The translations under genes and the position numbers were made by a program. 64,000 nucleotides of DNA from Wenjunlia vitaminophila DSM 41686 (GTDB lineage Bacteria; Actinomycetota; Actinomycetes; Streptomycetales; Streptomycetaceae): assembly GCF_000380165.1 (NCBI RefSeq), contig NZ_KB904634.1, forward strand, positions 1,131-65,130, in the 5' to 3' direction. Of this stretch, positions 15,061 to 19,448 are shown in pieces. The first letter of the stretch is position 1; each line of letters starts with the position of its first letter. Below the pieces are notes generated by a model. It searched no databases, had not been told where the DNA came from, and saw only the letters and a list, made by a program, of their open reading frames with translations.

Positions 15061-15160
15061 CGCACGGCGGTCCGGTCGGACGGGGCGGGCGCGGCCAGGC
15101 GCGTGACACGCCGTTAGGATGCGGCCGACGGAACATCAACTTCCCTTACTCGGAGGACTA

Positions 15161-16009
15161 GTGCCGGATCTACCGGAAGAGACCCCGGAGTGGATGAGGC
15201 CGGTGGACGGGCAACGGGAGCCGGTCGACCTGCGCACCCACGTGGCGCACCCAGCCCGGGTCTATGACTTCGCGCTCGGCGGCAAGACCAACTTCGCCGC
15301 CGACCGGGAAGCCGCCGAGCGGACCATGAGCGCGTCCCCCAACATGCCGACGGCGGCCAGGGAGAACCGGGCCTTCATGCACCGGGCGGTGCGCCACCTC
15401 GCCGGGCAGGGGGTGCGGCAGTTCCTGGACATCGGCACCGGCATCCCCACCTCTCCGAACCTGCACGAGGTGGTGCAGGCCGTCGCGCCGGAGGCCCGGG
15501 TCGTCTACGTGGACAACGACCCGATCGTGCTGGGGCACGCCCGGGCCCTGCTGACCTCCACCGCCGAGGGCCGGACCGCCTACATCGACGCGGACCTCAC
15601 GGACCCGGCGGCGATCCTCGCCTCCGAGGAGCTGGGGGAGGTCCTGGACTTCCACGAGCCGGTCGCCCTCACCCTGTTCGCGGTGCTGCACTTCCTGCCG
15701 GCCGACCTGGACCAGGACGAGATCGTCCGCCGGCTCCTGGAGCCCCTGCCGTCGGGGAGCTACCTGGCCATCAGCCACCTGACCGCCGATTTCGCCCCGG
15801 ACCGCGTCAAGCGGGGCGTGCGGGAGTACAACACCCTGTCCAGCACGGCGCTCCGGTACGTCGACCAGCCGGGGATGGAACGCTTCTTCAGCGACCTGGA
15901 GATGCTGGAGCCCGGCGTCGTCCCGGCGCAGCGCTGGCGCCCCGACGGCCCGGTGACCGCCAGCGACTCGGACGTCTGCCTGTACGGCGGGGTGGCCAGG
16001 AAGCCGTGA
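15161..16009 (+). CDS. DUF574/Methyltransf_28-type SAM-dependent methyltransferase
   Basis: A 282-residue protein of the actinobacterial S-adenosylmethyltransferase family PF04672 (DUF574). Family hallmarks are AHPARVYDFALGGKTNFAAD (about 30-50), the SAM site FLDIGTGIPTSPNLHEV (about 88-104), and VVYVDNDPIVLGHARAL (about 117-133). Members are numerous in Streptomyces and mostly uncharacterised. GGAGG ends five bases before the GTG at 15161, so I prefer this start; an ATG at 15119 would add 14 residues. It follows the FAAL gene by 100 bp and may be co-transcribed with it. The substrate is unknown. Confidence 0.85.
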   Translation: MPDLPEETPEWMRPVDGQREPVDLRTHVAHPARVYDFALGGKTNFAADREAAERTMSASPNMPTAARENRAFMHRAVRHLAGQGVRQFLDIGTGIPTSPNLHEVVQAVAPEARVVYVDNDPIVLGHARALLTSTAEGRTAYIDADLTDPAAILASEELGEVLDFHEPVALTLFAVLHFLPADLDQDEIVRRLLEPLPSGSYLAISHLTADFAPDRVKRGVREYNTLSSTALRYVDQPGMERFFSDLEMLEPGVVPAQRWRPDGPVTASDSDVCLYGGVARKP

Positions 16010-16076: not shown

Positions 16077-16571
16077 TCAGGAGCGGGCCTCGAGCAGTCC
16101 GGCGCGCTCCAGGATGCTTCGGGCCTCGTCCACCCGGCCACCTCGGGCGATCACGTCGTAACGGGCGGCGACCAGGCTGCGGACGGAGGCGAAGTCCCGC
16201 CGGCCCCCGGTCGCCGCGTGCCCCACGAAGCCGAAGATGGCTCCCCAGATCGCGCCGATGAGCACCCCGCCGAGGATCAGGCCCAGCCAGATGGGGCCCC
16301 TGGTGAACAGCCCCACCAGCAGGCCGATGAACAACCCGAACCAGGCGCCGCTCGCGGCACCCGCGGCGGCGGCGCGCCCCTTGGTGAGCCGCCCGGTGAC
16401 GTGTTCGATCAGGTGGAGGTCGGTCCCGACGATGTCGAGGTGTTCCACCGGGAACTTCTCGTCGGACAACCGGTCCACGGCGGCCTGGGCGTCCTCGTAG
16501 GCGTCATAGCTCGCAACCGTGTTCCAGGCGGCACTGACCCGGTTCCACGAGGTCGGCTCTATCTCGGACAT
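16077..16571 (-). CDS. General stress protein, YflT/GSP17M-like membrane protein
   Basis: A 164-residue protein with a soluble N-terminal domain (about 18-60, VASYDAYEDAQAAVDRLSD and VEHLDIVGTDL, the general stress protein 17M/YflT pattern). A glycine-rich hydrophobic hairpin follows (about 68-125, two or three membrane segments such as WFGLFIGLLVGLF and ILGGVLIGAIWGAIFGFVG), then a short soluble tail. Such proteins are induced by general stress sigma factors in Gram-positive bacteria; their biochemical role is not known. It is transcribed alone, divergent from the guanidinium exporter. Confidence 0.8.
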   Translation of the reverse strand: MSEIEPTSWNRVSAAWNTVASYDAYEDAQAAVDRLSDEKFPVEHLDIVGTDLHLIEHVTGRLTKGRAAAAGAASGAWFGLFIGLLVGLFTRGPIWLGLILGGVLIGAIWGAIFGFVGHAATGGRRDFASVRSLVAARYDVIARGGRVDEARSILERAGLLEARS

Positions 16572-16715: not shown

Positions 16716-16721
16716 TAGATT
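16716..16721 (+). promoter_or_regulatory. Candidate -10 element for the guanidinium exporter
   Basis: TAGATT in GCTAGATTC lies about 60 bp upstream of the riboswitch and would give a leader of roughly 120 nt. I see no clear -35 at 17-18 bp, so this is a weak call based on position. Confidence 0.25.
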
Positions 16722-16776
16722 CGAGGTGGATGTCCCCGCTCAGCGACCGGACCGGTTCGTCGGTGTGGGACACGCC

Positions 16777-16815
16777 CCGGACGAGCGCGTCGTACCCGGC
16801 ATGACAAGACGGCGT
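16777..16815 (+). ncRNA. Guanidine-III (mini-ykkC-III) riboswitch
   Basis: The 39-nt element starts CCGGACGAG, continues CGTCGTACCCGG and ends ACAAGACGGCG, the conserved order of the class III guanidine aptamer. From memory it nearly matches the Thermobifida fusca aptamer used for structure determination. CCGG/CCGG forms helix P1, and CGTCGT pairs with ACGGCG to make the H-type pseudoknot, with one G-U wobble. It sits 34 bp before an SMR transporter, the normal partner. The 3' pseudoknot strand ACGGCG (16810-16815) can instead pair perfectly with CGCCGT (16846-16851), which overlaps the GTG start. This suggests ligand-induced release of the translation start. Confidence 0.88.
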
Positions 16816-16849
16816 AGTAACGATCACTACTCCTCCGGAGGCCGTCGCC

Positions 16850-17164
16850 GTGCCGTGGATCATCCTCGTCCTGTCAGGGGTCATGGAGACCGTCTGGGCC
16901 GCCGCCCTGGCCGCGTCCCAGGGCCTGTCCCGCCTCAGGCCCGCCGTCCTCTTCGTCGTCGCCCTCGTGCTGAGCATGGGAGGGCTCGGCTACGCCATGC
17001 GGAGCATCCCCATCGGCACCGGTTACGCCATCTGGGTGGGCATCGGAGCCGTGGGGACGGCGGTGTACGGGATGGTGGCCCTCAACGACGCGGTGACCGC
17101 CGGGCGGATCGTGTGCCTGGTGCTGATCGTGGCCGGAGTGGTGGGGCTGAAGTTCATGCACTGA
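16850..17164 (+). CDS. gdx: SMR family guanidinium exporter (Gdx/SugE-like)
   Basis: A 104-residue small multidrug resistance protein with four membrane helices and the conserved Glu13 of TM1 in SGVMETVWAAAL, which binds substrate cations and protons. The TM1 pattern matches the SugE/Gdx branch rather than EmrE. SMR proteins work as antiparallel dimers. The guanidine-III riboswitch directly upstream indicates that it exports guanidinium. The GTG start at 16850 has GGAGG at 16837-16841, itself inside the palindrome CCTCCGGAGG, which may further gate translation. No second SMR subunit is present. The symbol is based on riboswitch context. Confidence 0.9.
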   Translation: MPWIILVLSGVMETVWAAALAASQGLSRLRPAVLFVVALVLSMGGLGYAMRSIPIGTGYAIWVGIGAVGTAVYGMVALNDAVTAGRIVCLVLIVAGVVGLKFMH

Positions 17165-17224: not shown

Positions 17225-17256
17225 AAAGGGCGTGCTGGGTCGGCAGCACGCCCTTT
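17225..17256. terminator. Bidirectional terminator
   Basis: AAAGGGCGTGCTG (17225-17237) and CAGCACGCCCTTT (17244-17256) make a perfect 13-bp stem with a 6-nt loop. It lies between the rightward SMR gene and the leftward PL8 lyase, with A/T at the stem base on both sides, so it can end transcription both ways. Confidence 0.85.
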
Positions 17257-17264
17257 CGCACCCG

Positions 17265-19448
17265 TCAGCCGAGGGGCTGCGTCATTGTTCTGCCGAGGTC
17301 CGCGCCGGAGCCCAGCTGAAAGCTGGCTCGGCGGGTGCGGCCGGGGGCGGCGAGGGTGACGGAGACGGTCAGCCCAGGCTGGTCGGGGTTGGCGACGCTC
17401 ACCACGGCCGCGCTGTCGGACTCCCTGAGCATGACGATGGCGGGCTGATCGACCCGCAGCGTACGGTGCACACCCAGGTCGAGGGAGCCTGCGGCATGGA
17501 AGGCAGCCATCGTCAGCCGCAGCCGCGGGTGGCGGACCGCCTGGACCTGCTCGTCGTTACGCAGGATCCTGACCGCCGGCCTGGCCGCGTAGGACCGCAC
17601 CTTCTCCGGTGATGCGCCGGGCAGGACGATGTAGGCGTATTCGGCTCCCACTGGGGCCTGGCCGTGGTCGAAGTAGAGCGTGAAGGCATTCCGCGTCACC
17701 GGATCGCGGTCGATCCAGCTCCCGGTCTGCTCCTTGTTCGAGACCCTGAGCGGTCCGCCCTCGGGGAAGACGTAACCGATCTCGTCGTTGTACGCCCAGG
17801 AGGCGTCGGTGGCGGTGGAATCGGTCCCCGGGGGCACGCTTTCGCCTCCGACCGAGGCATTACTCCGGGCTGCGCCCTGGTTGACGGTCGTGTGGACGGC
17901 GTTTTCGGAAGTGGAGCTGATTCCCGCGCCGAGAGCGACCATCTCATCGTCGAAGTAGAAGTAGCTCTTGCGTCCGGTGGTCGAGGACCGGTCGAGAGTG
18001 AAGACGTCGGCTCCGTAGCGCCCGTCGGAGACACCACCCGTGAAGCTGCCGGCGTTGCGCTTACCCGACTGTGACATCACCTTGGCGTACGGCGCGGTGA
18101 CCCCTGGGTAGTGGAACCAGTCGAAGGCGGGTACGAGGTCGTCGTATTCCCGGTTCGTGACCTGGACCGAGGTGGCGCCCTGCGCGTTCCAGTCGATCTC
18201 GTTGCCGACTTCCGGCCGGAAGGTGGAGCGGTACTCACTGCCGACCATGCGTGGCGAATTGATCCTGGTGAAGATTCCGTACCCGTCGCGCAGGTGCGAG
18301 GAGAACTCCGAGCGCCAGAAGTACTTGTGCCCGGTGACGCCGTTCTCGCGGGTCTTCCCACGGATGTTGTCGGCGAGCTTCTTGTAGGCCGCGGAGTTGC
18401 CCTCGTCCGCCCGCACCATCCGGTCGAGCGGATCCAGGAAGTCCGCCGCATAACTCGTGACGCCATCGATCGTGTTGGGGGGGCGGTACCCGAGGTACAT
18501 CATCCCGATCTCCCCGCGGATCAACCAGCGCGTCCCGTCGAGGATGTAGAAGGCGATGGCGTCGACCTCCTCGTCGGAGAGGGCGAAGCTCGTGCCGCGC
18601 GAGACGTCGGCCCACGCCGCGACGATGGTGAACAGCGCCATGCCGTAGCCCTCGCTGTAGAGCTGCGCACCATGCGCCCAGAAGCTCGAGTCGACCTGCA
18701 CGGCCTCCTTGATACCGCCGCTGCGGTCGACCGCGATGGTCTGCGACATGGTGTCGTAGCCCCGCTCGATCTCGGCGGTCGAGCGCTTGGCGACGGCTTC
18801 GTAGAGGTAGTTCTCCGTCCTCCAGGAGCCGTTCGCCCCGACCGGGTCGAGCCGGCCGGTGTTGTGTGCGTAGGTCACTTCGCGTGCCTCGGCGCTGAGT
18901 TCGTCGCCGACGAAGATCGACACTCGGCCCATGGCCATGGACTTGCCGATCTCGACCTCCCACCAGTTCTTGCTGGTCGGCTTGACACCGTCCCAGTACA
19001 GGAGTGCACGGTTCAGGGCCTCGATAATCTCCGGCCTCCCGTAGCCCGGGGCGTCCGGATCGCGGTAGGCGTGCGCCATCGCCATCATGCGGTAGAGCGC
19101 GTGGTACGGCGACCAGACCCGGCCGTTCGCGGAACTCGTGGTGTCGGCGTAGTCCACATTCGGCCATGAGCCATCGGCGCGCAGCGACTCGACGTACATC
19201 AGGGCTTCGGACGTACGGGCCAGGTAGATGAAGTTGGCGAGCTTGATCTGGTCACCCTGGGAGAGGAAACGCTGTTGTATGCGTTCGATGATGAGCTGGA
19301 TATCGTCCGCCGCTGCGGGGCCTGCTTCGGCGGCCCGCGCGAGAGCCGGTGCCGACAGGGTCAGACCGGACACGCCTGCGGCAAGTCCGAGTCCGCCGAG
19401 CAGGACACGGCGTCGGTCGAGAAGGGGTGCGGCTCCGTTTTCGGGCAT
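17265..19448 (-). CDS. Polysaccharide lyase family 8 (xanthan/hyaluronate lyase type)
   Basis: A 727-residue secreted lyase. A Tat signal (DRRRVLLGGLGLAAG, cleavage after ALARA near 39) precedes the alpha/alpha-toroid catalytic domain (about 45-380). Catalytic candidates are Asn206 in VGANGSW, His259 in FWAHGAQ and Tyr268 in SEGYG, the PL8 Asn/His/Tyr set. Beta-sandwich domains fill about 385-727. Family members cleave hyaluronan, chondroitin or xanthan by beta-elimination. It is leftward, separated from the lacI-type gene by 577 bp containing a palindrome shared with the ABC operon promoter, and so probably belongs to that regulon. No C-terminal binding domain, unlike the paralogue at 25632. 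Confidence 0.9.
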   Translation of the reverse strand: MPENGAAPLLDRRRVLLGGLGLAAGVSGLTLSAPALARAAEAGPAAADDIQLIIERIQQRFLSQGDQIKLANFIYLARTSEALMYVESLRADGSWPNVDYADTTSSANGRVWSPYHALYRMMAMAHAYRDPDAPGYGRPEIIEALNRALLYWDGVKPTSKNWWEVEIGKSMAMGRVSIFVGDELSAEAREVTYAHNTGRLDPVGANGSWRTENYLYEAVAKRSTAEIERGYDTMSQTIAVDRSGGIKEAVQVDSSFWAHGAQLYSEGYGMALFTIVAAWADVSRGTSFALSDEEVDAIAFYILDGTRWLIRGEIGMMYLGYRPPNTIDGVTSYAADFLDPLDRMVRADEGNSAAYKKLADNIRGKTRENGVTGHKYFWRSEFSSHLRDGYGIFTRINSPRMVGSEYRSTFRPEVGNEIDWNAQGATSVQVTNREYDDLVPAFDWFHYPGVTAPYAKVMSQSGKRNAGSFTGGVSDGRYGADVFTLDRSSTTGRKSYFYFDDEMVALGAGISSTSENAVHTTVNQGAARSNASVGGESVPPGTDSTATDASWAYNDEIGYVFPEGGPLRVSNKEQTGSWIDRDPVTRNAFTLYFDHGQAPVGAEYAYIVLPGASPEKVRSYAARPAVRILRNDEQVQAVRHPRLRLTMAAFHAAGSLDLGVHRTLRVDQPAIVMLRESDSAAVVSVANPDQPGLTVSVTLAAPGRTRRASFQLGSGADLGRTMTQPLG

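Follow-up and report, generated by a model that had tools for sequence, protein, structure and literature searches.

A guanidine-III riboswitch ahead of a predicted guanidine exporter gene in Wenjunlia vitaminophila and a candidate decoy for its aptamer at the ribosome site

Introduction

How guanidine binding by riboswitches of the guanidine-III class is passed on to gene expression has so far been inferred mainly from the closeness of the aptamers to ribosome sites. Earlier work on the class has already suggested that the ribosome site is exposed or released (PMC5696562, PMC12186494). The leader of an SMR transporter gene in a 64,000-nt stretch of the Wenjunlia vitaminophila DSM 41686 genome (contig NZ_KB904634.1; hereafter the window) poses this question in a concrete form: a strand of the aptamer pseudoknot has perfect complements around the start codon. 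Here we ask whether the aptamer and the ribosome site could exchange this strand, and in which register.

The aptamer and the regulated gene

The window carries what is, by its sequence, an ordinary and intact guanidine-III riboswitch ahead of a gene for a guanidine-export pump. The sequence-only reading of this DNA had named the class, and the Rfam covariance model search confirms it: positions 16757-16818 of the forward strand match RF01763 over its full length (model 1-67 of 67) with a score of 48.4 bits (E 5.7e-7, gathering score 36). RF01763 is the one Rfam family reaching its gathering score in the entire window, and a single guanidine-III copy was found across the 6.4 Mb genome. The 3' end of the aptamer lies about 31 nt 5' of the GTG-started SMR gene; a nearby downstream ribosome site and an SMR exporter as a usual target are features shared with the class.

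The H-type pseudoknot is present. Helix P1, formed by CCGG at 16777-16780 and CCGG at 16796-16799, has four of four Watson-Crick pairs, while P2, aligned to the Rfam model as GCGUCGU (16787-16793) with ACGGCGU (16809-16815), comprises seven pairs in the predicted ON state, two of them being G.U. These are U.G in pair 4 and G.U in pair 7, which distinguish the window from the T. fusca RNA (5NWQ) and RF01763. The wobble in pair 4 had been seen in the sequence-only reading as the single imperfection between CGTCGT (16788-16793) and ACGGCG; the latter strand exists, but its true position is 16809-16814, one base earlier than the 16810-16815 given there. Covariation is seen in both P1 and P2 across 85 distinct aptamers, with P1 pairs retained in 99-100% of them and changed on both sides. 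Pair 4 of P2 is systematically weak in this set, being C.A in 35 and U.G in three of the 85.

Judged by a visual alignment with the RNA of 5NWQ (PMC5696562), the ligand-site nucleotides C6, G7 and G17 of T. fusca correspond to C16782, G16783 and G16792, the last of them in the 5' strand of P2. With the conserved core, the pseudoknot and these three nucleotides shared, the RNA at 16757-16818 presumably binds guanidine. The window has a weak version of the 5' hairpin in the Rfam model. Unlike the class model, the leader has a GUAGU/ACUAC hairpin and the palindrome CCTCCGGAGG between the aptamer and the start codon.

The gene occupies 16850-17164 on the forward strand, with the start codon GTG at 16850-16852, and encodes 104 amino acids. 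Its product contains PF00893 (Multi_Drug_Res, 74.9 bits against a cut-off of 23.7), and the top NCBIfam model by far is SugE, with 109.9 bits (57.1 for the second-best), which is under the SugE equivalog cut-off of 126 bits. The protein has E13, W16, S42, Y59 and W62, residues of guanidinium exporters described for Gdx-Clo (PMC9574504). EmrE, too, has S42 and the Trp of position 62/63, so these residues alone cannot separate SMR subtypes. Sharing both PF00893 and all five residues with the Gdx (SugE) exporters, and differing from them in the score below the cut-off, the product is predicted to be a Gdx-type guanidinium exporter.

Pairing of the aptamer with the ribosome site

The strand ACGGCG is perfectly complementary to CGCCGT at 16846-16851, which overlaps the GTG start, as the sequence-only reading had pointed out; it was also right that P2 and the start region compete for the same 3' strand, P2 being imperfect and the decoy perfect. 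The motif GCCGT, though, occurs three times near the start (16841-16845, 16847-16851 and 16852-16856), and the 3' strand of P2 therefore has three registers, R1, R2 and R3. R1 joins GACGGC (16808-16813), part aptamer core and part P2 3' strand, to GCCGUC (16841-16846), located between the Shine-Dalgarno sequence and the start codon.

Folding favors R1. When each register is forced in 16800-16870, the energies are -19.4 kcal/mol for R1, -17.6 for R3 and -15.8 for R2, and in the RNAfold ensemble of the same segment the probability of R1 is 0.92, and that of R2 0.007. The fold of the whole leader without the pseudoknot raises R1 to 0.995-1.00, with the start codon never free, and extends it across an ACAA/GC internal loop by GGCAUG (16798-16803) paired with CGUGCC (16849-16854), which includes the start codon; pairs 16800-16803:16849-16852 have probabilities of 0.98-1.00, and 16798-16799 are paired in the MFE structure. 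In the fold spanning 16800 to 16900, R1 falls to 0.43. According to these models, the working OFF helix is probably R1 together with GGCAUG:CGUGCC, and not R2.

The two helices enclose the GUAGU/ACUAC hairpin (16814-16830, pair probability 0.57-0.92) and a weak UCC/GGA pairing (16831-16833/16837-16839) that occupies part of the Shine-Dalgarno sequence in the OFF fold. As the sequence-only reading held, the Shine-Dalgarno sequence GGAGG (16837-16841) lies inside the palindrome CCTCCGGAGG (16832-16841). Considered as a 10-nt Shine-Dalgarno hairpin, the palindrome was rejected: it allows only these 3 bp, is not conserved in relatives and appears to be a minor contributor.

In the ON model of 16816-16870, the start is 75-89% free and the Shine-Dalgarno sequence is still mostly paired; with the coding sequence included to 16900, the start is paired too.

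Comparison with control start regions

The pairing was compared with 214 start regions, 79 from the same genome and 135 from Streptomyces, drawn from stretches of those genomes; the control genes were called by a simple rule (open frame plus Shine-Dalgarno sequence), which biases them to strong Shine-Dalgarno starts. Runs of at least six Watson-Crick pairs between AGACGGCG and the region -18..+7 occur in 2 of the 79 own-genome and none of the 135 Streptomyces regions, and the duplex energy of the strand with the ribosome site of the window is matched by a single control region of 214. Since such long runs (2/214) and such energies (1/214) are rare, the complementarity exceeds chance, yet the register is not unique.

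The cost of opening the ribosome site, from the Shine-Dalgarno sequence to the start, is 16.4 kcal/mol in the OFF fold and 8.2 kcal/mol in the ON model. The difference of 8.1 kcal/mol is reached by 0.9% (2/214) of swapped ribosome sites; other coding-sequence lengths give 4.7% and 0.5%. Relatives show mean differences of 3.9 in long leaders, where the null is 0.1, and of 5.0 in short leaders, where it is 2.2. This cost, calculated over the whole leader, is the accessibility measure chosen second, after the mean unpaired probability of the Shine-Dalgarno sequence and start, calculated with the P2 3' strand as the sole part of the aptamer, had failed to separate native from swapped sites, and for that reason the two results are weighed together. 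As a whole, 16777-16870 folds with ordinary stability (z -1.15, matched by 26 of 200 shuffles).

Recurrence of the decoy in relatives

A match to RF01763 is carried by 338 of 392 genomes from the order and by 27 of 89 from the class. These matches, together with SMR relatives from named genomes, yielded 117 distinct leaders whose start could be mapped, and 114 were analyzed, three with doubtful starts being left out; the relatives are a non-random set, chosen among the top-scoring Rfam matches. GTC stands immediately 5' of the start codon in 65% of the 114 leaders, compared to about 2% of the 214 controls, and CGTC in 47%, compared to none. The GTC triplet complements the GAC that is nearly invariant in the aptamer core ACAAGACG. 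In the window, CGTC ends 3 nt before the start, not directly at it as in many relatives. The motif also precedes riboswitch genes other than SMR (leaders L057, L070, L220 and L261), and it is found before the start in none of five SMR genes lacking the aptamer, a small sample.

When leaders are grouped by similarity, the percentile of complementarity remains high (Wilcoxon p 6e-5 for 27 clusters, 0.0017 for 13 clusters), while the closer matching of cognate than of swapped strands and ribosome sites is not robust, its p ranging from 0.006 to 0.34 with the clustering. Some leaders have the same asymmetry as the window, an imperfect P2 and a perfect decoy: in L041, L048, L062 and L064, for example, GACGACG pairs perfectly with CGTCGTC before ATG, while P2 contains C.A.

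The exact pattern of the window leader, sought in 395 genomes of the family, matches the window alone. The leaders most similar to it, those of Amycolatopsis antarctica, A. suaedae, Prauserella muralis, Streptomyces megasporus and S. pathocidini (L112, L113, L117, L118, L121), share the gene type, the long leader and a stem just 5' of the Shine-Dalgarno sequence. This stem, CGYAGT/ACTRCG, corresponds to the GUAGU/ACUAC hairpin of the window. In the relatives it runs into P2 and abuts GGAGG, whereas the stem of the window has lost its outer pairs and is set apart from the Shine-Dalgarno sequence by TCCTCC. Moreover, in the predicted folds of L112, L113 and L121 the ribosome site is paired to sequence from the 3' part of the aptamer, as in the window (CAAGAC:GUCUUG in L121). 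As the nearest leaders show both the stem and this pairing, the architecture is shared, while the exact helix drifts.

In short leaders (L032-L038, L131-L141, L192), the core ACG is about 14-26 nt from the start and the Shine-Dalgarno sequence directly follows P2. L033 and L036 have GACGGCCC:GGGCUGUC pairing around the Shine-Dalgarno sequence; pairing of this type is absent from L139-L141.

We give about even chances to the generalization that one expression platform is common to actinobacterial guanidine-III riboswitches: a decoy (GTC or CGTC directly ahead of the start codon) at the ribosome site, aimed at the near-invariant GAC core and the P2 3' strand, would set the start in competition for one strand with P2, whose pair 4 is often weak (C.A or U.G). 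If the decoy holds, complementarity between a GTC ahead of the start and the fixed GAC in the core would be an easily stated rule, open to reporter tests in many actinobacteria, and would account for the frequent imperfection of P2. The impression that the mechanism is rarely so plain as in the window was overstated, comparable decoys being common in actinobacterial guanidine-III leaders and release having been proposed before. We did not find the start-codon decoy stated in the literature covered, which does not extend to the original validation study (Sherlock and Breaker 2017) or to the study of RNase E; the comparative evidence for it is the only mildly new point here, and no priority is claimed.

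Proposed mechanism and alternatives

The reading we favor, with somewhat more confidence than doubt, is that the riboswitch turns the Gdx-type SMR exporter gene ON, mainly at the level of translation, by strand exchange with the ribosome site. Without guanidine, the 3' half of the aptamer, GGCAUG-ACAA-GACGGC (16798-16813), would pair with GCCGUC-GC-CGUGCC (16841-16854), breaking P1 and P2, burying the GUG start and tying up the Shine-Dalgarno sequence in a three-way junction that includes the GUAGU/ACUAC hairpin. Guanidine would stabilize the P1/P2 pseudoknot and its triplex, so that the 3' half of the aptamer is occupied and the ribosome site is left free. Control of the ON type, as anticipated in the sequence-only reading, is favored by folding and comparison, though not by the mean unpaired probability; it stays short of proof and agrees with what has been predicted for the class.

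A different main output, the stability of the mRNA, is unlikely but is the strongest of the alternatives. Here the ligand-bound aptamer, being close to the 5' end, would block scanning by RNase E, and pairing at the ribosome site would be secondary. Such protection has been reported for the class (Richards and Belasco 2021, as summarized in PMC12186494), and a -10-like motif, TGCTAnnnT, is repeated 5' of the aptamer in many relatives (L055, L067, L098, L112, L117, L118, L121). In many Streptomyces it is only about 19 nt ahead of GACGA, and the transcript would therefore start almost at the aptamer. The putative element of the window, TAGATT at 16716-16721 of the forward strand (within GTGCTAGATT), is proposed from its similarity to the consensus, the surrounding TGCTA...T motif being the part that recurs in relatives, although a sigma-70 scan calls no promoter there. 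It is, however, about 60 nt upstream of P1 and, if correct, would leave about 50 nt ahead of the aptamer. Moreover, an effect on stability leaves the GTC/CGTC decoy before start codons unexplained. The two outputs are not mutually exclusive, and RNase E protection may add to the translational control favored here.

Somewhat less likely still is that no strands are exchanged: P2 would always be formed, guanidine would only dock the third strand, and the decoy would be a by-product of high G+C content or shared ancestry. The main counter-evidence to strand exchange belongs here, since published in-line probing data, which PMC5696562 quotes, show P1 and P2 uncleaved with or without guanidine, and the exchange is in this sense unseen in vitro. 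The ordinary total fold energy and the null result on openness agree with such a static P2. On the other hand, the complementarity is enriched over start regions, likewise high in G+C, from this genome and related ones, and the GTC motif also stands 5' of riboswitch genes other than SMR.

The original proposal, that ACGGCG:CGCCGT (R2) is the helix hiding the start, now looks improbable. It offers six perfect pairs touching the GUG start, a kind of run seen near only 2 of 214 control starts. Its probability, however, is at most 0.009 in every fold, and when forced it is worse than R1 by 3.6 kcal/mol in 16800-16870 and by 9 kcal/mol in the whole leader; moreover, the family-wide GAC:GTC complementarity is fully used by R1 and not by R2. 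Transcription attenuation, the mode of Guanidine-I and -IV (PMC12186494), is the least probable explanation, as a search of the leader for an intrinsic terminator found no terminator-like site and no U-run after any helix.

Genomic context

The SMR proteins nearest to that of the window are from Amycolatopsis antarctica (79-80% identical), A. suaedae and S. pathocidini. With Amycolatopsis and S. pathocidini being the nearest for the whole unit, the gene and the riboswitch may have been transferred together; support in the tree is weak. In a second genome of the same genus, the sole guanidine-III copy (L261) precedes another gene, with a product that begins like that of L220, and GACGTC is immediately 5' of its GTG start.

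Upstream of the leader in the window are a gene for a SAM methyltransferase (Methyltransf_19, 15119-16009, forward strand) and a divergent gene for a stress protein with the YflT domain (16077-16571, reverse strand). Downstream, the SMR gene is convergent with a polysaccharide lyase family 8 gene (17265-19448, reverse strand), and the stem AAAGGGCGTGCTG / CAGCACGCCCTTT between them, at 17225-17256, is, judging from the sequence, probably a two-way terminator.
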